IMG/VR virus record: IMGVR_UViG_3300037427_000179
Location: 1-31,060 of that record
DNA length: 31,060 nt
Strand: one strand, 5' to 3'
From: a virus
Shown here: positions 5,649 through 15,954 of the stretch, piece by piece
How the letters are laid out: the number at the start of each line of letters is the position of its first letter
How positions within the stretch are numbered: the stretch's first letter is position 1
Position numbers and translations under genes: made by a program
The notes under the pieces: generated by a model
What the model saw: the letters and a program-made list of their open reading frames with translations, nothing else
Databases searched by the model: none
What the model was told of the DNA's origin: nothing

Positions 5649-7323
5649 TCTCTCCTTCATTCTCTTTAGGCATTTTCTGTGGTTGAGGCTCTGGTGGCAA
5701 TGCTTCTTGCGCCATTGGATCCCCCATTGGATCTCCCATTGGATCCCCAAAAGCACCTTGTTCCATCTCTAACATTTGCTGATTTGGATCAGGTAAAACG
5801 CCTTTAGCAATTTCATCTTCAATTTGTTCATCTATTTCTACAATTTCTGAATCCTTTTGGCGCAATACATTTCTCCTTATATACTCTGTAGAATAATATC
5901 TACCAACATAAGGTTCAACCATACCAAGAAGACCTAGACGACCTTCCATTAATTCCTTATCTTTCAATTCAGCAAAGTGATTATCGTAGATAAAGTCGAA
6001 TTGAATATGCTCAGTCATTACCTCCCAATCTTCTGGGGTAACTATATTCTTAAGAAGTAATTGAGTTCTTAGCATATCAATAAAGATCTTACTGAAACGC
6101 TTACGCAATCTACCTACCCACTTACTGAACTTAAGTTCATCTCTTAGAATCTCTGAACTACGGCCAAGATTAAATCCATCCCCAGATCCAGCGATTCTAG
6201 ATTCAGGTACTCCCAAAGATCTGTACAACTTAGATTGGAAATACTCAATATCAGCCAACTCCCCAAGGTTCTGTCCACCTGGGAGTGTTGTAATCTCTGT
6301 TCCTCTTCCACCCTCTCTTCTAGGTAACCAGAAGTCTTCAAGCATGGACATGTATTTTTTATCATCTCTAACTTCTCCTGTTCCTGAATCATAAACTAAT
6401 TTGTTTCTGTAACGAGACATTACATCTCTTAGGTATTGCTCTGCTTTAATCTTTGGAAGGTTACCAACATCAATATAGAATATTCTCCTTTCGGGAGCAC
6501 GAGACATGCGGTAGATAACCAAACTGTCTTCAATCATTCTAAGTTGATTGAGTGACTTAATTGCTTTTTGGAGATATGATAAGACTGTACCTTTATTCCT
6601 ATCAACCAAACCAGAAGTACAATATGTAATCGAATCTTTTGCAAGTTTAACCCCCGACATTGCTGTACTTGCACCACCCATTGCCAGGTTAGTTGGATAG
6701 CGTGGTTCAGGAGTATACATGAAATACTCTTCTATCTTAGGAAAGTATACCTTCTCAGATTCATGCACATTACCTGTATTAAAAGCTCCTCCACCAGTTG
6801 CATCTTTCTTCTTTTCCTCCTTACGGACATATCGCATCTTCATAGGATCGATATACCTTAATTCCTGTATACCATCCTGAGGTTTTTTAATGTCTATAAC
6901 CTTATTATAATAGACTCTACCATCAACATACCAGTTTCTAAAAATCTCATGTGCTTTGGAATCAAAATCTAAGAGATCTTTAATGTGTTTAAACTCTGCT
7001 CTAATTCTATCTTTAATACCATCAGAGGCATTAAGATTATCCAGATCAATTTCTACTGGAGAATCATTAGTATCAGATACAATTGCTTCATTGACAATAT
7101 CCTCTACAGCATTATCCACCTCAGGGTGGAGTGCCATTTCTCTATATTTTCTTATTGCCTGATGTTCATTTTTATAGATCCCTTCTAGATCTATAACCTG
7201 ACTTGAGAATCCTGACTGTATATAATAATCAACCCCATCCTCGCCTGTCTGCGGAATGGGGGATACTACACCTTTAGGAAGGTCGTCTTTATCCTCAATA
7301 GAAAATCCAAAAAGCCGTGCCAT
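5644..7323 (-). CDS. 20: Portal vertex protein gp20
   Basis: A 559-residue protein (T4 gp20 has 524). It is the dodecameric ring at the unique head vertex through which gp17 pumps DNA and to which the neck attaches. Recognisable blocks include AVEDIVNEAIVSD, RYIDPMKMRYVRK, YRMSRAPERRIFYIDVGNLP and SLGVPESRIAG. These are the classical cyanophage g20 PCR regions. The C-terminus is acidic and ends with three GDPM units and a Pro/Gln-rich tail. ATG at 7323 is 29 bases below a GATAAATA motif. Confidence 0.98.
   Translation of the reverse strand: MARLFGFSIEDKDDLPKGVVSPIPQTGEDGVDYYIQSGFSSQVIDLEGIYKNEHQAIRKYREMALHPEVDNAVEDIVNEAIVSDTNDSPVEIDLDNLNASDGIKDRIRAEFKHIKDLLDFDSKAHEIFRNWYVDGRVYYNKVIDIKKPQDGIQELRYIDPMKMRYVRKEEKKKDATGGGAFNTGNVHESEKVYFPKIEEYFMYTPEPRYPTNLAMGGASTAMSGVKLAKDSITYCTSGLVDRNKGTVLSYLQKAIKSLNQLRMIEDSLVIYRMSRAPERRIFYIDVGNLPKIKAEQYLRDVMSRYRNKLVYDSGTGEVRDDKKYMSMLEDFWLPRREGGRGTEITTLPGGQNLGELADIEYFQSKLYRSLGVPESRIAGSGDGFNLGRSSEILRDELKFSKWVGRLRKRFSKIFIDMLRTQLLLKNIVTPEDWEVMTEHIQFDFIYDNHFAELKDKELMEGRLGLLGMVEPYVGRYYSTEYIRRNVLRQKDSEIVEIDEQIEDEIAKGVLPDPNQQMLEMEQGAFGDPMGDPMGDPMAQEALPPEPQPQKMPKENEGEI
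5712..5747 (-). repeat. Three 12-bp units encoding GDPM repeats in gp20 tail
   Basis: Three tandem copies of a 12-base unit (plus strand ccattggatccc with one c-to-t change in the middle copy) encode the residues GDPMGDPMGDPM near the gp20 C-terminus. The units stay in frame and the nucleotides are almost identical, which suggests recent slippage. Confidence 0.85.
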
Positions 7324-7352
7324 TATAATAGAAAGATACCTTGATACCTATC

Positions 7353-7360
7353 TATTTATC
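7353..7360 (-). promoter_or_regulatory. Late promoter motif GATAAATA before gp20
   Basis: Minus strand GATAAATA lies 29 bases before the gp20 ATG and touches the gp19 stop codon. It matches the NATAAATA late consensus in seven core positions. Confidence 0.6.
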
Positions 7361-7979
7361 AGCTTACATTACCGCCGTTTCCAGCAGCTTCCCACCACTG
7401 AACCTGTAAGGTCACAGTAAATTCTTCAACAGAGTCTGAAGAATCGTAGGATAAATCTATTTGAGAAACATTTGTTGGGAATATGCTATAGAACTTATAA
7501 GTCCTAAGAACTGGCATATTCTGATCTGAATTTTGTGATCCTGCGTCAACAGCAGATCTACCAAGTTGATACACAAATGCATCTCTGGTATAATCCTCAG
7601 GATTAATATTACCAGCATTATCAGATACTTTGGACATGGAGTTCATCCATCTCTCAAAGGAACCTCTGATTGCAAAGTCTGTATCGTTAATTACAGTGAT
7701 TGTCCATTCATCGAATGTCCTGTCTCCTGCAATTTTTAATTGGCGACCTCTGAAAGGTACGCTGATTGGAGCAATGTTTGATGCAGGAAGTGCAGCAGCC
7801 TTGACAAGGAATCTTGTCTTAGGATCTATGTCACTTACTGATTCATCTACCACTCCATCGGGGAATGCAAGAACCACCTCAAACAGATTAGGTCTTGCAA
7901 TACCACCCGTCAACCTCGACTTAAACTTGTCGATAGTCCTTTCCGAGGTCTTCGGTGGGTTTGCGGAATTGATTGCCAT
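7359..7979 (-). CDS. 19: Tail tube protein gp19
   Basis: A 206-residue protein, longer than T4 gp19 (163). It polymerises as hexameric rings to form the inner tail tube. The typical blocks are GGIARPNLFEVVLAFPDG near residues 25-42, then KAAALPASNIAPISVPFRGR, FDEWTITVINDTDFAIRG and a C-terminal beta strand with VTLQVQWWEA. ATG at 7979 follows gp18 by 26 bases with no obvious promoter between, so the two are likely co-transcribed. Confidence 0.95.
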   Translation of the reverse strand: MAINSANPPKTSERTIDKFKSRLTGGIARPNLFEVVLAFPDGVVDESVSDIDPKTRFLVKAAALPASNIAPISVPFRGRQLKIAGDRTFDEWTITVINDTDFAIRGSFERWMNSMSKVSDNAGNINPEDYTRDAFVYQLGRSAVDAGSQNSDQNMPVLRTYKFYSIFPTNVSQIDLSYDSSDSVEEFTVTLQVQWWEAAGNGGNVS

Positions 7980-8005
7980 TAGTCTTACCTAAAGTGAGTT
8001 AATAA

Positions 8006-10246
8006 TTAAACTTTTCCAATAACCTCATCAAAGGAAACACCTGTGCGTGTAGCAACAAAGGTTAGTCCGATGAAGTTAATAGATCTTGCTGGTTTAATGT
8101 AAATGTCAGCAACAAACTCATTGCTGTCAATGATCGAAGGTGTGTTATTGGTCTCATCGCATATAACGACGAAATCTTGAATACCACGCTTGGACTGTAC
8201 ATCACGAAGGAACGGTTCAACAATATTAATAAAGTTGATCCTTGTAATCTCATCGTTGAACTCAAACAGTACATCTTTCGCTGCAGCAGCAATTGCTTTT
8301 TCGAGGAAGATGAACAGACGACGAACATTAACTCTGTCAAAGGCAGAAGACCTACCTAATCCAGTCTTGTCACCGAAGAGGATAATACCTGCACCAGGTG
8401 AGAAGATGATTGGGTTAATTCTGTTAGAGTATAATTTGTCTCTATGTACTTTATTTGGTGTGTATGCTAGTTTAACAGCATTCAGAATAGCACCTCTTGC
8501 AGTTCCACCTGGTGAGAACCAAGGGAAGTTATTGATGTCATTTCTAGCACATGTGCCAGCAATGTCACCGTTCATAGGAACATATCTAAACTGTTGATTA
8601 AACCTGTCATACATGTACTTATAACCACTATCAAGAATGGCATAAGAACTTGATGTAATCGGAGAGTAGTAACTAACAATGTTATCTGTTACTGTATCCG
8701 TATTTAATTGAAGGGATTCACCTGCTCCAGATGCACTTAAGAAAGAACCTCTGTATGGTGATAGGAATGCGATAGCATCCTTTCTAAATTCAGCAATCTC
8801 AATCAATTTATTTGAGAGTGCCTGTGTTTCGTACTTACCGTGATTGGCACAACCTAAGAGTAAGAAATCAACATCGATTTCATCTGGGTTGCGGAGATAA
8901 TCGTATGCTTCTGAAAGAGCACCGATATCTAGGTTAAGTGCATTTGCTTCAGTGATTGTAGAAATACCATTGTAGTTCTTACCACCAGTAAGTACAGCAC
9001 TGTAATTACCGATAGAACTAAAGGTAATGTTCTCAGTATCCTGATCCCATCCACCATCTCCGAATGTATCCCACTTATCTTCGCTGAATCCTGTAGTAAC
9101 AATACCAGCAGGAGAACTACCAGCAAAGAGATTAGCAGAACCAACTTCGATTACCTTTCTCCAGTAAGAAGATGAACCAGCAGAATACTGGGCATCTTTT
9201 GCCTTCGACAAATTAGTAAACTTCTCTAATACTGAACCTGAGTTACCAGTTATAGTACCAGTGTCGTCATAAACAACTACATGAAGTTCATCAAATCTAG
9301 AATTTCTAGTTGATGCATAGGAAGATGTTCCTGGCTTATCAGCAATTTGATTCCACTTAACAACAGCACCGTTGTTTAGTGTAATGGATTGTTGATCAAA
9401 CCAATCTACAGAGTTAGTATAAGTCGTTAAACCAGAGTAAACTCCAGGTGCAAGACCATGCCAACTTCCATACCTTCTTATTTCACCAGTGTGAATACCA
9501 AGGTTACCTGTCTCAGAGAACTGATAAGTACCTGCTTGCTGATAATCAACAGCAGTTTCAGTTCCACCAGCAGAAACATGCGATATTAGTTTAACTGTAA
9601 TTGCAGCATTTCCAACATTAACAATCTGTCCTTTAAAGTATCCATCAAGAACACTAGTAGAACCAGAACCAGCAATAACTGTGTTTGCAGGAACTGTTTG
9701 TGTGACTGCGTAACCAACCTTTAGGTTTATAGGATCTACAGGAGTAACAGTAGAACCATAACCCAATACATTAGTAGTAACTATACCACTGAGTACTTGG
9801 TCACCAAAACCATCTATGGTTGCTACTTTAATACCATTTGACCAAGAACCAGGGTTCTTAGCAGCGTATGTTACGCCAGCAATAGTATTTTCGTTGTAGG
9901 CACTGTTAGTGTAATCCTCAGGACTTTTAATCTTAACACTAGCGGCTGTTCCAACGAAACCATTCTTGAGTTCTTCGTCATCTGCACGAACCACCCTCAT
10001 CACACCACCGTAGGCGAGATAGGATGAAGCAGTTAACCAATACTCATAGTGGTTGTCTTTAGGATACGGCTGGCCGAAAGTGTCCAGAAGATCCGCTTCT
10101 GTTTCAATTAGTTCTGGGGTCTCTACTGGTCCTTTTGCAAATGGAGCGGCCAAACCACCAGTTTTTGTCGATGTTGCATCGACTCTACCGTTAGTAAGAT
10201 CAACTTCCCTTACAACTATACCAGGAGATGCTAGATTAAGCGGCAT
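8006..10246 (-). CDS. 18: Contractile tail sheath protein gp18
   Basis: A 746-residue protein (T4 gp18 has 659). The start has the typical sheath N-terminus, SPGIVVREVDLTNG. The middle (roughly 110-440) is Ser/Gly/Thr-rich and beta-like, corresponding to the variable outward-facing domains. The C-terminal 250 residues carry conserved sheath blocks: KLAYTPNKVHRDKLYSNRIN, FSPGAGIILFGDKT, SAFDRVNVRRLFIFLEKAI and the end with INFIGLTFVATRTGVSF. It forms the contractile layer around gp19. ATG 10246 lies 37 bases below an AATAAATA motif. Confidence 0.98.
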   Translation of the reverse strand: MPLNLASPGIVVREVDLTNGRVDATSTKTGGLAAPFAKGPVETPELIETEADLLDTFGQPYPKDNHYEYWLTASSYLAYGGVMRVVRADDEELKNGFVGTAASVKIKSPEDYTNSAYNENTIAGVTYAAKNPGSWSNGIKVATIDGFGDQVLSGIVTTNVLGYGSTVTPVDPINLKVGYAVTQTVPANTVIAGSGSTSVLDGYFKGQIVNVGNAAITVKLISHVSAGGTETAVDYQQAGTYQFSETGNLGIHTGEIRRYGSWHGLAPGVYSGLTTYTNSVDWFDQQSITLNNGAVVKWNQIADKPGTSSYASTRNSRFDELHVVVYDDTGTITGNSGSVLEKFTNLSKAKDAQYSAGSSSYWRKVIEVGSANLFAGSSPAGIVTTGFSEDKWDTFGDGGWDQDTENITFSSIGNYSAVLTGGKNYNGISTITEANALNLDIGALSEAYDYLRNPDEIDVDFLLLGCANHGKYETQALSNKLIEIAEFRKDAIAFLSPYRGSFLSASGAGESLQLNTDTVTDNIVSYYSPITSSSYAILDSGYKYMYDRFNQQFRYVPMNGDIAGTCARNDINNFPWFSPGGTARGAILNAVKLAYTPNKVHRDKLYSNRINPIIFSPGAGIILFGDKTGLGRSSAFDRVNVRRLFIFLEKAIAAAAKDVLFEFNDEITRINFINIVEPFLRDVQSKRGIQDFVVICDETNNTPSIIDSNEFVADIYIKPARSINFIGLTFVATRTGVSFDEVIGKV

Positions 10247-10283
10247 CTTTTTCGTCCTCTATAGAATCCAATTTGTCTATGAT

Positions 10284-10291
10284 TATTTATT
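10284..10291 (-). promoter_or_regulatory. Late promoter motif AATAAATA before gp18
   Basis: Minus strand reads AATAATAAATAATC, with the NATAAATA motif at 10291-10284. It sits in the 81-base gap between the zinc-ribbon gene and gp18, 37 bases before the gp18 ATG. It probably starts the gp18-gp19 transcript. Confidence 0.62.
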
Positions 10292-10327
10292 ATTTGTAGT
10301 GTTTTAATCGGGGAAACAATACATGAA

Positions 10328-10558
10328 CTACCAGTCTGGATAACTCCAGATACCATTATCTTTCTTTCTACTAGATTTAATTCTTTTTATAGTACACCCT
10401 TTACACTCATAAGAATATGATGATGGGAGATGTGTACTTTTCTTATGTGTTAAATAAAAACCATCTATTAGGTTCTTGACACTACCACAGACTCTACATC
10501 TTCTTTCACTCAGTAATAAATCACCAAGTTCAAATTGTTCCTCTAAGTCGAATTCCAT
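10328..10558 (-). CDS. Small zinc-ribbon-like protein
   Basis: A 76-residue protein from ATG 10558. A TTG at 10573 would add five residues but is less likely. Two CxxC pairs, C21-C24 (CRVC) and C52-C55 (CKGC), about 27 residues apart, suggest a single zinc-binding fold. A basic segment follows (KRIKSSRKK), and aromatic residues end the chain. This pattern resembles the zinc part of phage endonuclease VII/HNH-type proteins, but no catalytic HNH residues follow, so a nuclease role is unsupported. It overlaps the nucleotidyltransferase gene by 16 bases. Confidence 0.75.
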   Translation of the reverse strand: MEFDLEEQFELGDLLLSERRCRVCGSVKNLIDGFYLTHKKSTHLPSSYSYECKGCTIKRIKSSRKKDNGIWSYPDW

Positions 10559-10971
10559 TGCTTTAGGATCCAACTACTAGAATTTTGTTTATGAGTTCCA
10601 CCAACCCCAAATGCAAATTGTACTCTAGGATCTTTATCAAACTCATAAATCTCAGGTATATTATCCTGTGTCCTATCTCCACCATTAGCAAATAAGACAT
10701 CATCAAATAGTACTAGAGTCTTTTTAATAAGATCTATAGAACTATCATTCTCATCATTAAATGGTACAGCACTATCAACCATTCTCAATTCTTTAATGAC
10801 TGCCAATCTTTCATCTATAGGCATAAATGGTTTACCTTTCTTTCTAGTTAACCATTCATCAGAATTTAATCCTACGATAAGGATATCTCCTAATTTCTTT
10901 GCTTCTTTAAAGTGTTCAATGTGTCCACTGTGGATAGGGTCAAATCCACCACTAACAATAACAACTCTCAT
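10543..10971 (-). CDS. HxGH-type nucleotidyltransferase (cytidylyltransferase-like)
   Basis: A 142-residue protein of the RfaE/HldE-C and glycerol-3-phosphate cytidylyltransferase superfamily. The N-terminus MRVVIVSGGFDPIHSGHIEHF holds the nucleotide-binding HxGH signature (H14, H17). GLNSDEWLTRKKGKPFMPIDER at about 34-55 is the usual second block, and the end carries GGTHKQNSSSWIL in the place of the ISSTxxR motif. It would transfer a nucleotide from CTP or ATP to a sugar- or polyol-phosphate; the substrate cannot be told. ATG 10971 overlaps the NifU stop as ATGA, which sets the start and argues against a longer N-terminus. Confidence 0.9.
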   Translation of the reverse strand: MRVVIVSGGFDPIHSGHIEHFKEAKKLGDILIVGLNSDEWLTRKKGKPFMPIDERLAVIKELRMVDSAVPFNDENDSSIDLIKKTLVLFDDVLFANGGDRTQDNIPEIYEFDKDPRVQFAFGVGGTHKQNSSSWILKQWNST

Positions 10972-11204
10972 AATACTTGAATAACTCCTACCACATCTGG
11001 TATTTCCATCATTAGTTTCTTTTCTATACCTTGTTTTAATGTCATAACACTCATAGCACATGTCTCACATGCACCACCCAATCTAACTTTTACTATACCA
11101 GTTTCCTCTTCTATTTCTACAAACTGAAGGGATCCTCCATCTGCTTCAATATAAGGAAGAAGTTCTTCTAGAACCTTAATTACATTTTCTTCTGTTAATT
11201 CCAT
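10968..11204 (-). CDS. NifU/Nfu C-terminal-domain Fe-S scaffold protein
   Basis: A 78-residue protein consisting only of the NifU C-terminal (Nfu) domain. It has LLPYIEADGGSLQFVEIE, then VRLGGACETCAMSVMTLKQG with the cluster-binding C46 and C49, and ends IPDVVGVIQVL. Such domains hold a transient 4Fe-4S cluster and hand it to target proteins. Cyanobacterial hosts use an Nfu-type scaffold for photosystem I assembly, so a virus-encoded copy could support host Fe-S supply during infection (inference). It overlaps the 53-residue gene by 10 bases and the nucleotidyltransferase gene by 4. Confidence 0.93.
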   Translation of the reverse strand: MELTEENVIKVLEELLPYIEADGGSLQFVEIEEETGIVKVRLGGACETCAMSVMTLKQGIEKKLMMEIPDVVGVIQVL

Positions 11205-11356
11205 AATCGTGTCAATTGACGAACATCAGATACACCAAATAATGCTTTACAAGTTTGCTCTGCATCTTCTCTTAGATTAGATGGTGAGGTAAACTCTACC
11301 TTCATAAGTCTATTACTCTCTAAGAGTACTTGAGCAGACCATTTAACTGGTTTCAT
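11195..11356 (-). CDS. Small protein (53 aa) between gp17 and NifU-like gene
   Basis: ATG 11356 to TAA 11195 encodes 53 residues beginning MKPVKWSAQVLLESNRLMKV and ending DVRQLTRLWN. The start overlaps the gp17 stop as ATGA and the end overlaps the NifU-like start by 10 bases, which is the packing seen throughout this genome. It is short and has a mixed alpha/beta pattern with one cysteine. I do not recognise a family. Confidence 0.75.
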   Translation of the reverse strand: MKPVKWSAQVLLESNRLMKVEFTSPSNLREDAEQTCKALFGVSDVRQLTRLWN

Positions 11357-13011
11357 TTGTACTCCCACATATATGACAGATCCCCATACTCATCAACCTT
11401 TGCCCATCTGTCACCTTCTTCATCTACAAACTCATCTTCATCATCAACACCATCTAATATAAAACCAAATGGAGCCATATCTTGTTCAATCTGATTCCTC
11501 TGTTCCTCATAGATACGCTTCCGCACATCTGTGTCAGTCATTTCCTTGAAGTAGTCTTGTGCTACTAACCACGCAAATATAACAAGACACATTGCAAGGT
11601 CATCATGGCAACCATCTTCTGCCTCCCATGATTGTTTCTTCTGTACAAAGGTTGTTAGTTCTGCGATAATATCATAATCATTCGTTACTATTTTATCATC
11701 TTCCATTAAAGTTTTCAAGTTAGAACAACCCAACTTCTTAACTGCTGCTGTCATCCTAACACCCATCTGCGTTCTGCTACCAGAAAATCCTGATCCTACT
11801 TGCTGACCATTCCTACCTCTCATAGCACACATAAGAAGATTTTCATATTCTAAATCGTAATTGAGAATAGATGCTACCTGTTCTCCTATATCATTAATCT
11901 CTACTAATACATATGCTTCATTGTACGCTTTTGCTATATCCATTATAATGTTAGGGAATAGCATAGGTTTAACTTCATTATTCCTATACCTTGCCACAGT
12001 CTTATGTGGGAATGTGGTAATATCGAATACTATAAAGCAGGAGTAATCACCATCAATACCTCTAGCAGTATCAACAGTGATAATGTAGTCATTACCTTTC
12101 ACAGGGTTTTCATAAATGAGGAGACCTTTTCCGTTGGTTTGTATTGGATCCTCGAACACGAGATTCCTAAGTTTAGTGACACTAATAAGCGTATCAACAG
12201 ATCCTAAAAATTCACATTCAAACTCAACCTTAAACTGCTGTTCTGATGTGTTCTTAATGGTCTGCTCTTTCCACTTAGCATCTCTACCAGGTACTTCAGA
12301 CCAATGAACCTCAGTAGCAGTGTATTCATTCTTACCCCTTTGTGCATCATGCCAATACCTATAGAAATGGTTCATACCACAAGGGGTAGATACCATTATG
12401 ACTTTCGTTGACTTACCAGAAGTAATAGTAGGGTAAACAGAACTAAAGAATGCTTCTGCGATATGATTTGGGACAAAGGCGAACTCGTCGAGGAAAATGA
12501 TATTGAATGACATGCCTCGGACAGCACTTGCAGATGTAGAAGCTGCCAATATCTTTGATCCATTCTCTAACTCCATTGATCCTTTGTTCCAGGATAAGAT
12601 ACCCTGTTGCATCCACTTAGGCAAGTTTTCATAAGCAGTCTGTAGTCTGCCAAGTAGTTCTCTGGCAGTTGCTGCTTTGTTTGCTAGGATACCTACATTA
12701 ACACTATCATTAAAAACAATATAATGCAAGAGGTATGAAACAGCAGTTGTGGATTTACCAGTCTGCCGAGGCATCTTGCATATATTAAATCTAGACTCGT
12801 GAAAATTTTTAATTAACTTCTCTTGGAAGTCATACATTTTAAATGGTACAAGACCTTCATCCAAAGATACAATTTTAATGTAATTCTTTGCAAAATATAT
12901 TGGGTCTTGTTTACATTTAATAAACTCCTCAACCTGTTTAGCATTAAACTCAACGGTTGTGTTTGCTTTCTTTAGATTGGGATTACCAAGATATATGTCT
13001 TGTTGTGACAT
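11353..13011 (-). CDS. 17: Terminase large subunit gp17
   Basis: A 552-residue protein (T4 gp17 has 610). It is the packaging motor ATPase and headful nuclease. The ATPase domain shows Walker A at about 80-88 (MPRQTGKST) and Walker B with catalytic glutamate at 171-176 (IIFLDE). Motif III follows near 206-212 (IMVSTPCG). The C-terminal RNase H-like nuclease has D314 in IITVDTARGIDGDYS, an acidic residue in VLVEINDIGEQ, and the last acid in GCHDDLAMCLVIFAW. The tail is acidic. ATG 13011 overlaps the preceding stop by one base (TAATG). It docks on gp20 during packaging. Confidence 0.98.
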   Translation of the reverse strand: MSQQDIYLGNPNLKKANTTVEFNAKQVEEFIKCKQDPIYFAKNYIKIVSLDEGLVPFKMYDFQEKLIKNFHESRFNICKMPRQTGKSTTAVSYLLHYIVFNDSVNVGILANKAATARELLGRLQTAYENLPKWMQQGILSWNKGSMELENGSKILAASTSASAVRGMSFNIIFLDEFAFVPNHIAEAFFSSVYPTITSGKSTKVIMVSTPCGMNHFYRYWHDAQRGKNEYTATEVHWSEVPGRDAKWKEQTIKNTSEQQFKVEFECEFLGSVDTLISVTKLRNLVFEDPIQTNGKGLLIYENPVKGNDYIITVDTARGIDGDYSCFIVFDITTFPHKTVARYRNNEVKPMLFPNIIMDIAKAYNEAYVLVEINDIGEQVASILNYDLEYENLLMCAMRGRNGQQVGSGFSGSRTQMGVRMTAAVKKLGCSNLKTLMEDDKIVTNDYDIIAELTTFVQKKQSWEAEDGCHDDLAMCLVIFAWLVAQDYFKEMTDTDVRKRIYEEQRNQIEQDMAPFGFILDGVDDEDEFVDEEGDRWAKVDEYGDLSYMWEYK

Positions 13012-13211
13012 TACTTCTTCTTACACTTACACTTATACTTAGCAAATGCAGCTGCAAGTATTACAACTATTGCTGCTATACCTACACCAGTTCCCCAACC
13101 AATACCTTGTGGTTCTGGTTCAATAAATGGTGCTAGTTCAGGTACTTCTTCTAGCATTTTTGTTGCTTCCTTTGGTATTGGAAGTTGTTTTAATAGTTCT
13201 TTAGTTGGCAT
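13011..13211 (-). CDS. Small single-pass membrane protein (66 aa)
   Basis: Starts at ATG 13211. The first 36 residues are soluble and Pro/Glu-rich. One hydrophobic segment follows at about 38-57 (GWGTGVGIAAIVVILAAAFA), and a very basic Cys/Lys tail (KYKCKCKKK) ends the chain. This is a C-terminal anchor topology with a positive end likely in the cytoplasm. I do not recognise it. It lies 3 bases after the nuclease gene and is coupled to gp17 by a TAATG overlap. Confidence 0.8.
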   Translation of the reverse strand: MPTKELLKQLPIPKEATKMLEEVPELAPFIEPEPQGIGWGTGVGIAAIVVILAAAFAKYKCKCKKK

Positions 13212-13214
13212 GGT

Positions 13215-13679
13215 TTAACCCTCCTGTAATGTGCCGTGAGCTCTGCGGATCTCTCGGAGATCCTCAAAGTTCTTTTGCTTAGTGCCTCCATCGTATGCCC
13301 AAGCATACCCCTCGGTGATCATCTGTTCATTCAGCGAAAGATCAGAGTCGCCAACATAGAGCCAACCAAGAAGCCTACCATACTTCCCAACCCCACCCTT
13401 AAGTTCAGTTCTAACAGTGAGTTCTTCATCGCCTTTAATTGTCTCCTCTAATTTCCCCTTCAACCAATTGGTCGCATCTAATCCAAGTGCCTTCTCCTCC
13501 AAGTCCCTCGTTCTCTTCTCTGGGGTGTCCACTCCAGCAATCCTTACTCTCTCTGTCTTCGCTAGGTCGAACCCTAGGTCTATTATCACATCTATAGTAT
13601 CCCCGTCCAAGACCTTCTTGATCTTCGTCACACGGAAATTGTAGCAGCTCTTCCTGCTTGGGGGTGTCATTGCTCCCAT
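13215..13679 (-). CDS. Staphylococcal-nuclease-like endonuclease (SNase/TNase fold)
   Basis: A 154-residue protein. I chose ATG 13679 because GAGG precedes it by 9 bases; ATG 13670 and TTG 13694 are alternatives. The SNase fold is clear: VLDGDTIDVIIDLG near 23-36, RVRIAGVDTPEKR at 44-56, KYGRLLGWLY at 99-108 and SLNEQMITEGYAWAY at 115-129. The catalytic residues of micrococcal nuclease are all present, as D27, R46, E54 and R102. It should be a calcium-dependent nuclease. No signal peptide is seen, so it acts inside the cell or on the virion. Possible roles are host DNA degradation or genome processing. Confidence 0.93.
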   Translation of the reverse strand: MGAMTPPSRKSCYNFRVTKIKKVLDGDTIDVIIDLGFDLAKTERVRIAGVDTPEKRTRDLEEKALGLDATNWLKGKLEETIKGDEELTVRTELKGGVGKYGRLLGWLYVGDSDLSLNEQMITEGYAWAYDGGTKQKNFEDLREIRRAHGTLQEG

Positions 13680-13700
13680 TGTTGAAATCCTCAAGTGAGC

Positions 13701-13708
13701 TATTTAGC
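13701..13708 (-). promoter_or_regulatory. GCTAAATA motif before the nuclease gene
   Basis: Minus strand GCTAAATA lies 21 bases upstream of the chosen nuclease ATG. It is one base from the NATAAATA late motif, and similar CTAAATA copies occur before other genes in the window. Confidence 0.35.
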
Positions 13709-14244: not shown

Positions 14245-14844
14245 TTACCTAACTAAGTATTCGTTTAAAGATTTCTTTGATATATCGTAACGAAACTTAC
14301 TATTATCCTTTTTTGGAATAGACTCTTTAAAGTTCATTGACACTACCGTTCTTTTACCATCAGTAGGTTGAACTTTATGTTTTAGAATAGATGGAAAAAT
14401 AACTAACATACCATCTTCAGGTTGTATTTCAAGTGTATCTTCAAAGATAAGTGGAGCACAATTATCTTCTACTTCTACAAAATAAGCACTAGACAATACT
14501 GATGGATAATGATCATGTGGTTCTGTATAATCACCATTCTCATATTGTATAAACCACATATTACTACATTCTAATGTTGCTTCTTCTTTAATATGAAAGT
14601 AATTATGTGAAAGAAAATTACATGCTTTAGTTGCTAACTTAACAAAATATTCAAATTGACGATTTGATTTATGAACAAACCAATCACTGCGCCATGCTTT
14701 CACATTGCTTTCATATTTGTCTGGATGTTTTTTCCTATACTCCTCTATGAGTCTAAGTAAGACCCCATCATTAGGTGGTTGAAGGATTGTTTTAAATACA
14801 GGAATCTCTTTGGATACTGTACTAATATCAAAGGAGGATTGCAC
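14245..14844 (-). CDS. 2OG-Fe(II) oxygenase-like protein (A)
   Basis: A 199-residue protein starting at GTG 14844, since an in-frame TAG lies directly upstream and no early ATG exists. The double-stranded beta-helix signature is FIQYENGDYTEPHDHYP with H110 and H112, then PEDGMLVIFPSILKHKVQP with H156, and KRTVVSMNF with R165. This resembles the family of putative phage and bacterial 2OG-Fe(II) oxygenases (Pfam 2OG-FeII_Oxy_5 type), which use H-x-H...H and an Arg for 2-oxoglutarate. The substrate is unknown. It overlaps the 49-residue gene by 17 bases. Confidence 0.85.
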   Translation of the reverse strand: MQSSFDISTVSKEIPVFKTILQPPNDGVLLRLIEEYRKKHPDKYESNVKAWRSDWFVHKSNRQFEYFVKLATKACNFLSHNYFHIKEEATLECSNMWFIQYENGDYTEPHDHYPSVLSSAYFVEVEDNCAPLIFEDTLEIQPEDGMLVIFPSILKHKVQPTDGKRTVVSMNFKESIPKKDNSKFRYDISKKSLNEYLVR

Positions 14845-15047: not shown

Positions 15048-15337
15048 TATTTATGTGCTTCTTCAGAGCCTCCAACATAATCTATATCGGCATGATAATT
15101 CTCAGATGCACCAATATGGAATGGATTATACCTAGCAGTTGCCATGCGATACATTTTCTCATGCATAGTAACTACTTCTTCAGCAGTCTTCTCAAACTCA
15201 GGAGAAGATTCATGTCTTGATTGATAAGCATCTGCTATCTCTTCTTCTGGTCTTGGATTATCTGTAGCAATTGGCATAGAATCATGTGGGTGAGGTTTAT
15301 GGAACCATTCATCATAGGATATTTCTGGTAGTGACAT
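15047..15337 (-). CDS. Hypothetical protein (96 aa), His/Glu-rich
   Basis: Starts at ATG 15337, overlapping the previous stop by one base, and its TAA overlaps ATG 15047 by one base. It is soluble and acidic with nine histidines, including HKPHPHDS near residues 13-20. The central part (about 45-70) looks helical, with EFEKTAEEVVTMHEKMYRMA. No known motif is seen. Neighbours suggest a shared role with the oxygenase-like proteins, but nothing in the sequence proves it. Confidence 0.8.
   Translation of the reverse strand: MSLPEISYDEWFHKPHPHDSMPIATDNPRPEEEIADAYQSRHESSPEFEKTAEEVVTMHEKMYRMATARYNPFHIGASENYHADIDYVGGSEEAHK
15048..15055 (-). promoter_or_regulatory. CATAAATA motif upstream of the 49-aa gene
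   Basis: Minus strand CATAAATA overlaps the end of the 96-residue gene, 70 bases upstream of ATG 14977. It matches the NATAAATA late motif. Confidence 0.45.
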
Positions 15338-15954
15338 TAGCAGTAGTATAAATTACCTGATATAGAGATCCGATCTTCATCACACTCATAAAAGGGATAC
15401 ACACAATGCTTAAAAGATGATGGAAAGAATAACATCTTACCTTCCATCTCAGGATCCATTAAGTATGGATATGACCTGATCTGACCTGTTGTATCTATGT
15501 ATGCCATCTCAAAATCAGATGCTGAAGCACCTTCCATACCTTTAAGGAAATCAAGATTATGTTGCTCTTTACTTTTCGTTGGTATTTTTAACCATATAAC
15601 AAATGAAAAAACCCCACCATGATCATGAGAGGGATTAAATTCATGCTTCTTTTGATAATTTATCCAAAACCCTTCTAGATCATAGCTTTTTCTTGGTGCT
15701 AAATGATCTTGTTTGTTAAACCCATGTGGATAATTTTTTGCATATTCATTAACACATCCTCGCAATACATTATCTCTAAACCAATTATCCTCGTCTTTAA
15801 GATCAAGACTTTCACTTATATTTCCAGCTAAAGTATCTTTGACAGATACAGATGCTTTATCAGCATACTTCCATAATCTGTCAATGATATCTTTATCCAA
15901 TTCAATTTCCAACCACCCAGTAATGGGTGGAGTTATTGCATTATATCTAAACAT
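15337..15954 (-). CDS. 2OG-Fe(II) oxygenase-like protein (B)
   Basis: A 205-residue protein from ATG 15954. The core motif FNPSHDHGGVFSFVIWLKIP gives H110 and H112. GKMLFFPSSFKHCVYPFYE gives the distal H183, and EDRISISGNLY gives R195, the expected 2-oxoglutarate-binding Arg. The order and spacing fit the double-stranded beta-helix oxygenases. It is clearly different in sequence from protein A at 14245-14844, so the pair is not a recent duplication. Possible substrates include protein residues, nucleic acid bases or small molecules; none is indicated. Confidence 0.85.
   Translation of the reverse strand: MFRYNAITPPITGWLEIELDKDIIDRLWKYADKASVSVKDTLAGNISESLDLKDEDNWFRDNVLRGCVNEYAKNYPHGFNKQDHLAPRKSYDLEGFWINYQKKHEFNPSHDHGGVFSFVIWLKIPTKSKEQHNLDFLKGMEGASASDFEMAYIDTTGQIRSYPYLMDPEMEGKMLFFPSSFKHCVYPFYECDEDRISISGNLYYC

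Follow-up and report, generated by a model that had tools for sequence, protein, structure and literature searches.

p53, Nfu and nucleotidyltransferase genes as probable exchangeable cargo in the gp17-gp18 slot of a cyanomyovirus-like genome fragment

The stretch of DNA analysed here, hereafter the window, is a virus record of 31,060 bases that carries a T4-like cyanomyovirus structural module. Among the matches listed, its portal protein is closest to that of the isolate Synechococcus phage S-T4, and since the identity is only 75%, the window belongs to an uncultured lineage. The locus lies on the minus strand. The gene of the terminase large subunit, gp17 (11353..13011; phrog_2, E 8e-77 in PHROGs), forms the upstream edge of the slot, and the tail sheath gene gp18 (8006..10246; phrog_23, E 1e-114 in PHROGs) forms its downstream edge. 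Four short genes lie between them, in the following order: p53, coding for a small conserved protein of 53 aa (11195..11356); Nfu, a NifU C-terminal domain of 78 aa with the pair C46-x-x-C49 (10968..11204; PF01106 and phrog_29737, E 2e-35); NT, an HxGH nucleotidyltransferase resembling RfaE/HldE domain II, 142 aa long when read from an internal ATG (10543..10971; PF01467 and phrog_7878); and ZnR, a 76-aa zinc protein of the 'endonuclease VII'-like kind (10328..10558; phrog_4723, E 2e-32). Along gp17, p53, Nfu, NT and ZnR the neighbouring genes overlap by 4, 10, 4 and 16 nt, and a gap of 81 nt separates ZnR from gp18. The preliminary description of this DNA had placed four short overlapping genes between gp17 and gp18, and their coordinates, overlaps and strand are confirmed here. 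Median dN/dS, calculated only from sequences as long as the window gene and more than 70% identical, was 0.12 for Nfu (82 sequences), 0.10 for NT (11) and 0.12 for p53 (34); thus these three genes are under purifying selection and are not chance ORFs. Upstream of gp17, on the same strand, lies a T4-GC228-like nuclease gene (13215..13694; phrog_452, E 1.5e-71), which is 88% identical to a P-SSM2 stretch holding the gene noted as T4-GC228. Two genes resembling 2OG-Fe(II) oxygenases (14245-14844 and 15337-15954) are situated between the small and the large terminase genes.

The preliminary description measured the locus against phage T4, in which genes 17 and 18 are adjacent. Such adjacency does hold in P-SSM2, where gp17 adjoins gp18, but many cyanomyoviruses already carry T4-GC282 between the two genes, and therefore T4 is the wrong baseline. 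A tblastn search with ZnR returned 113 phage records, all of them named Synechococcus, Cyanophage, Prochlorococcus or Marine virus. The relatives commonly lie beside the terminase gene, the records of S-SM2 and Syn1 note the counterpart as T4-GC282, and the gene is present in cyanophages that have no Nfu or NT in the slot. Judging from these relatives, the fourth gene is a resident cyanophage gene and not cargo, and the genes that appear as extra relative to cyanomyoviruses are only p53, Nfu and NT. Two zinc CxxC pairs are kept in all 57 distinct ZnR proteins. ZnR does not make up a module with the other three genes.

One would argue that the cargo is mobilised by ZnR acting as a homing endonuclease, as its PHROG bears the name endonuclease VII. 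Our yardstick for this notion was a D-H after the first CxxC and an N after the second zinc pair, which we take to be the catalytic residues of T4 endonuclease VII. The D-H is absent in 56 of the 57 distinct ZnR proteins and present in one, and CxxCN was sought in the same 57 proteins and found in none. The AlphaFold2 model of ZnR is middling (pLDDT 74.8), and the fold search with it gave no match with E <0.001, the best one being a beta-beta-alpha-metal nuclease at E 0.84. PMC3037559 does propose that endonucleases make this region recombinogenic, but the legend of its Fig. S7 states that most copies of the putative endonuclease at the 3' end of gp17 have lost the catalytic residues. We therefore reject a homing role of ZnR as very improbable. 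The main text and the Fig. S7 legend of that paper have apparently exchanged the labels T4-GC228 and T4-GC282; according to the record notes, T4-GC282 adjoins gp17 and T4-GC228 is a PF00565 protein.

The Nfu domain with C46/C49 that was described previously is upheld by PF01106 (E 6e-23, 81.2 bits against a cut-off of 27) and by direct reading of the two cysteines. The nitrogen-fixation protein NifU proper was considered and rejected, as TIGR02000 reached 48.4 bits against 273.3 and was matched only at profile positions 223-289 of 290. The nifU product of P-SSM2 is 86% identical to the window Nfu over all 78 residues, and 27 records of the phage collection contained Nfu matches; apart from cyanophages and marine viruses, these records are for the most part contigs that lack annotation or bear host-type genes. 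OR846744, OR844991 and similar contigs, named as 'Listeria/Staphylococcus phage' and unverified, carry a host-type Nfu and are probably host DNA. All 77 distinct phage Nfu rows have the CxxC. It is followed by AMS in 74 of these 77 and also in 2 of 22 bacterial or plastid rows, while both chloroplast NFU fragments have PSS at this place. The best solved relatives are the chloroplast proteins NFU2 and NFU1; domain 1 of plastid NFU2 is 51% identical to the window Nfu and scores 183, and a Crocinitomix Nfu scores equally well (180).

A genome scan with the window Nfu gave 18 loci and none in Cyanobacteria: 17 lie in Bacteroidota- or Ignavibacteria-type MAGs and one is a phage-like contig filed under Flavobacteriales. 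A contig of the Flavobacteriales MAG TMED123 (L084) is cyanomyovirus-like despite its bacterial bin, as it shows a phage Nfu followed successively by gp17, ZnR and gp18. In the plasmid search, the 60 listed of 78 matches included a single cyanobacterial NifU proper, which was kept outside the trees, and plastid NFU fragments stood in for cyanobacterial NfuA. In the first tree, where these plastid fragments represent cyanobacteria, a branch with an SH-aLRT of 92 has every phage Nfu on the same side; in the second tree, of 99 rows, the bacterial rows need two changes. Truncated hits, identical proteins, unlabelled loci, L084 and L136 were left out of both trees, and the second was also built without L001 (the window itself), L276 and 2m5o (long branches); the Nfu of L107, being identical to that of L042, was folded into the L042 row. 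L136 carries upstream of gp17 a divergent Nfu-like ORF (2607-2873) with extra cysteines and 27% identity to the window Nfu, on a contig that has NT in the slot. Viral nifU was reported earlier on GOS contigs (PMC2186209), in an oxygen-minimum-zone virome (PMC8940887) and on two Cariaco contigs (PMC7785012). The remark in PMC2186209 that sequenced marine viral isolates are apparently without nifU-like sequences does not fit the nifU record of P-SSM2. Our search for literature on cyanophage Nfu, which covered the papers on NifU and cyanophages in part, found none.

The third gene is an HxGH nucleotidyltransferase, as described before: H14-S-G-H17 was read directly and PF01467 was matched with E 1e-15 and 58.5 bits against a cut-off of 21. 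The nearest NCBIfam models are those of RfaE domain II and TagD, and both stay below the equivalog cut-offs (TIGR02199, 77.7 against 181.5; TIGR01518, 55 against 165.4). The HxGH residues (H14, G16, H17), NGGDR and NSSSW do not vary among the 44 NT rows of the alignment, and a GGD motif is also a feature of HldE. The AlphaFold2 model of NT (pLDDT 88.6) has its nearest folds in TagD (1coz, 2b7l), a Thermoplasma LPS-core protein (3glv) and HldC (5xf2). The 42 distant NT loci (L140-L181; 58-66% identity, from the best 80 of at least 598) are mostly ORFs of about 250-266 aa. Two of them were scanned (L152, L155) and both contain a PF01050 mannose-6-phosphate isomerase C-terminal cupin, which makes them an apparent one-protein sugar-activation enzyme. 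These NT-cupin fusions offer a testable lead on a family listed in databases as 'bifunctional heptose kinase/adenylyltransferase'. Sequences resembling glycosyl- and methyltransferases, as read by eye, recur near the distant loci. The NT of the window is without the cupin, and in cultured cyanophages a relative of about 50% identity has DNA polymerase as its neighbour and uvsX nearby, outside any LPS cluster. NT looks like an enzyme of sugar activation and not of electron transport, since relatives are fused to cupins and its nearest folds are those of TagD and HldC. Most likely, NT activates a sugar phosphate in glycan or LPS-type chemistry.

No family match was found for p53 in Pfam, PHROGs or NCBIfam. 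Of 79 distinct p53 copies whose end could be read, 31 share a 10-nt overlap with Nfu, 11 directly precede NT, 15 precede other ORFs and 22 have no gene called next to them; the other ORFs include, by Pfam, one ThyX and one NlpC/P60 protein. The p53 gene is portable and not specific to Nfu, which is its commonest partner.

The slot itself is known from the literature. PMC2984593 describes g15-g18 as hypervariable with metabolic cargo, and Sullivan 2010 (PMC3037559, section 27) says the same of gp17-gp18, both citing Millard 2009. We examined the best 80 of at least 592 Nfu loci and the best 80 of at least 598 NT loci, and since these are the best-scoring parts of longer lists, the proportions hold for near relatives only. 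The NT loci include 38 close ones, whose identity to the window NT is 79% or more. ZnR and gp18 follow NT in all 38, directly in 35 and with Nfu between in 3; gp17 is also seen in 33, and gene order and insert length make up 13 arrangements. p53 occurs in 8 of the 38 and Nfu in 5. The slot is also filled with halogenase-like ORFs (PF04820), an 85-89-aa ORF and a 186-aa ORF, the last of which had no Pfam match and resembles GIY-YIG by eye only. Two of the halogenase-like ORFs (L110:927-1610 and L114:2189-2992) match PF04820, a model of length 458, only from about 195-237 on, and thus their N-terminal part is missing or shifted. A search for the Nfu-NT junction pattern in viral contigs gave seven stretches. 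Nfu is joined to NT only in L263, which belongs to the same contig as L107; in L264 and L266-L269 NT comes after an insert of 1081 nt, halogenase-like where it was read (L110, L117), and L265 holds none of the genes of the block.

It could be that p53, Nfu, NT and ZnR form a functional operon that serves one pathway, as is suggested by the tight overlaps, by the same order in L107 and by the overlap between p53 and Nfu, which is exactly 10 nt in 31 of 31 pairs. However, the complete set is found in a single one of the 38 close NT loci (from the best 80 of at least 598), namely in L107, so the preliminary notion of a co-occurring set fails. Additionally, Nfu occupies the slot without NT at other slot loci, the order is NT-Nfu-ZnR in three of the 38, and ZnR is at home in slots with neither of the two. 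Thus we reject the one-pathway operon as highly unlikely.

In the best 80 of at least 592, Nfu lies in the slot in 35 and elsewhere in 45. A locus was labelled as slot when gp17, NT, ZnR or gp18 was a neighbour within 400 nt, and therefore contigs that end early may be miscounted as elsewhere; three loci were labelled by hand from annotation or hit positions (L083 and L273 as slot, L082 as other). On the tree of 99 rows, changes between slot and other positions number 15 (bootstrap 14-16), at least 7 of which are forced by well-supported branches, although the details are weak as the tree has only 78 columns. Our data show that the content of the slot is mosaic and that Nfu entered and left it several times. 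A T4-GC228-like nuclease lies downstream of 19 of the 45 non-slot loci and petE within 6 kb of 10 of them, a minority (the 45 being drawn from the best 80 of at least 592).

The transcription signals help to understand how such a slot could be tolerated. The cyanophage late promoter is given as NATAAATA in PMC2984593. A late-promoter-like ATAAATA lies 38 nt upstream of gp18 (10284..10290, minus strand) and a late-type CTAAATA lies 7 nt upstream of the T4-GC228-like gene (13701..13707, minus strand), both from a motif scan. Within 100 nt before gp18, [CA]TAAATA is present in 42 of 42 distinct relatives and ATAAATA in 40, where the base that precedes the motif is 42-46 nt away from the aligned gp18 start. 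The window has 13 copies of [CA]TAAATA on the coding strand and 1 on the other, and 8 of the 13 lie 8-60 nt before a start (P 6e-8 by a simple binomial with a hand-made start list and self-chosen limits). On both strands together the motifs are not enriched over shuffles (ATAAATA 6 against 11.7 expected, CTAAATA 8 against 8.3); the signal is in strand and position, not in number. The block of four genes in the window contains no late-type motif, and the stretches upstream of the relatives' genes have it in 0 of 85 for Nfu, 0 of 62 for p53, 0 of 51 for ZnR, 10 of 72 for NT and 2 of 22 for gp17. Scans of 7300-13400 stayed at the shuffle level for sigma-70 promoters (19 against 19.9) and for terminators (5 against 3.5).

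The conservation of this motif shows that gp18 keeps a late-promoter motif of its own, as predicted from sequence, downstream of the slot, and the cargo upstream of it could therefore be swapped without disturbing gp18. We infer that gp18 would start its own transcription unit and that the slot would be the tail of the gp17 unit, with the CTAAATA before the T4-GC228-like gene as the site where transcription of gp17 and the slot may begin. The cargo would then be read through from gp17 with tightly coupled translation. The earlier suggestion that the four genes are made together, late in infection, is compatible with this arrangement, from which it can only be inferred. A slot with swappable cargo in front of an independently started gp18 would explain why metabolic genes turn up among structural genes.

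What Nfu would do in the infected cell is best considered in the light of its cyanobacterial relative. According to PMC7058544, a review, cyanobacteria cannot do without NfuA, and the protein transfers [4Fe-4S] to PsaC in Synechococcus 7002 and [2Fe-2S] to ferredoxin in Synechocystis; this makes delivery to PsaC or ferredoxin a reasonable role for Nfu too. Most likely, the phage protein would dimerise and bind an Fe-S cluster with C46 and C49. We propose that it would pass the cluster on to apo-proteins of the infected cyanobacterium, such as PsaC of photosystem I and ferredoxin, and so top up the host NfuA during infection. By analogy, it is plausible that phage Nfu delivers Fe-S clusters to host photosynthetic proteins.

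Two other readings of Nfu have to be weighed. The clients could be Fe-S enzymes made by the phage, for example a phage ferredoxin or radical-SAM proteins, and not host photosystem I; phage Fe-S scaffolds have been argued, in the survey PMC5332604, to serve viral Fe-S proteins too. However, the 26 window ORFs that were scanned, from what is a genome fragment, include no recognised Fe-S client, and photosynthesis genes such as petE recur near the non-slot copies, so we regard service to phage enzymes as rather unlikely. Less likely still is that Nfu no longer carries clusters and has kept fold and CxxC for a decoy of host NfuA or for a redox or regulatory role. Both cysteines are kept in every one of the 77 rows, purifying selection is strong and AMS is also seen in the 2 of 22 bacterial or plastid rows, although the single phage group and its AMS in place of the plastid PSS would agree with such a change.

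Taken together, it is probable that the block is a p53, Nfu and NT cargo in the known gp17-gp18 slot, with Nfu serving in Fe-S delivery and NT in sugar activation. The cargo would be lodged after the 3' end of gp17 and ahead of the resident T4-GC282, and Nfu and NT would have become neighbours through cargo swapping and not as parts of one pathway. As the slot was already known for the swapping of accessory genes, the locus mainly adds another instance of an established pattern. In large parts of the ocean iron is limiting, and photosystem I contains much of this metal. With at least 592 relatives, Nfu is widely met in marine viral contigs, and as an Fe-S delivery protein it would give direct access to the question of how infection sustains electron transport. 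A bolder idea, that a single phage-specific Nfu lineage with the AMS loop, often preceded by an overlapping small partner of its own, p53, is a widespread device of ocean cyanophages for steering Fe-S clusters, the pair being mobile through T4-like cargo slots, is speculative and we hold it as doubtful.

Several known systems resemble parts of the locus. Chloroplast NFU2 and NFU1 and cyanobacterial NfuA have the same PF01106 domain as the window Nfu, the phage proteins differing from the plastid ones in the AMS that replaces PSS, and RfaE/HldE domain II and TagD have the HxGH, the GGD motif and the fold in common with the window NT. In P-SSM2 the 86% identical protein is PSSM2_228 (T4-GC223, annotated nifU), and its gene lies about 66 kb from gp17-gp18 and about 0.3 kb upstream of petE, whereas the window has Nfu in the slot. 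P-TIM68 carries an Nfu, gp100, after gp17 and before a T4-GC282-like gene and gp18, as in the window; gp100 is 49.5% identical to the window Nfu by tblastn and 60% over the aligned residues, and its loop is longer. The 63-aa ORF that precedes gp100 is not matched by p53, and the NT relative of P-TIM68 lies elsewhere in that genome. Of the published endonuclease-linked mobile cassette, the window has the other endonuclease type, T4-GC228-like, upstream of gp17. With the cyanomyovirus g15-g18 cassette of PMC2984593 and PMC3037559 the window shares the position after gp17, T4-GC282 and the metabolic nature of the cargo; the published slot cargo is zwf, gnd, petE and PTOX, while that of the window is p53, Nfu and NT.
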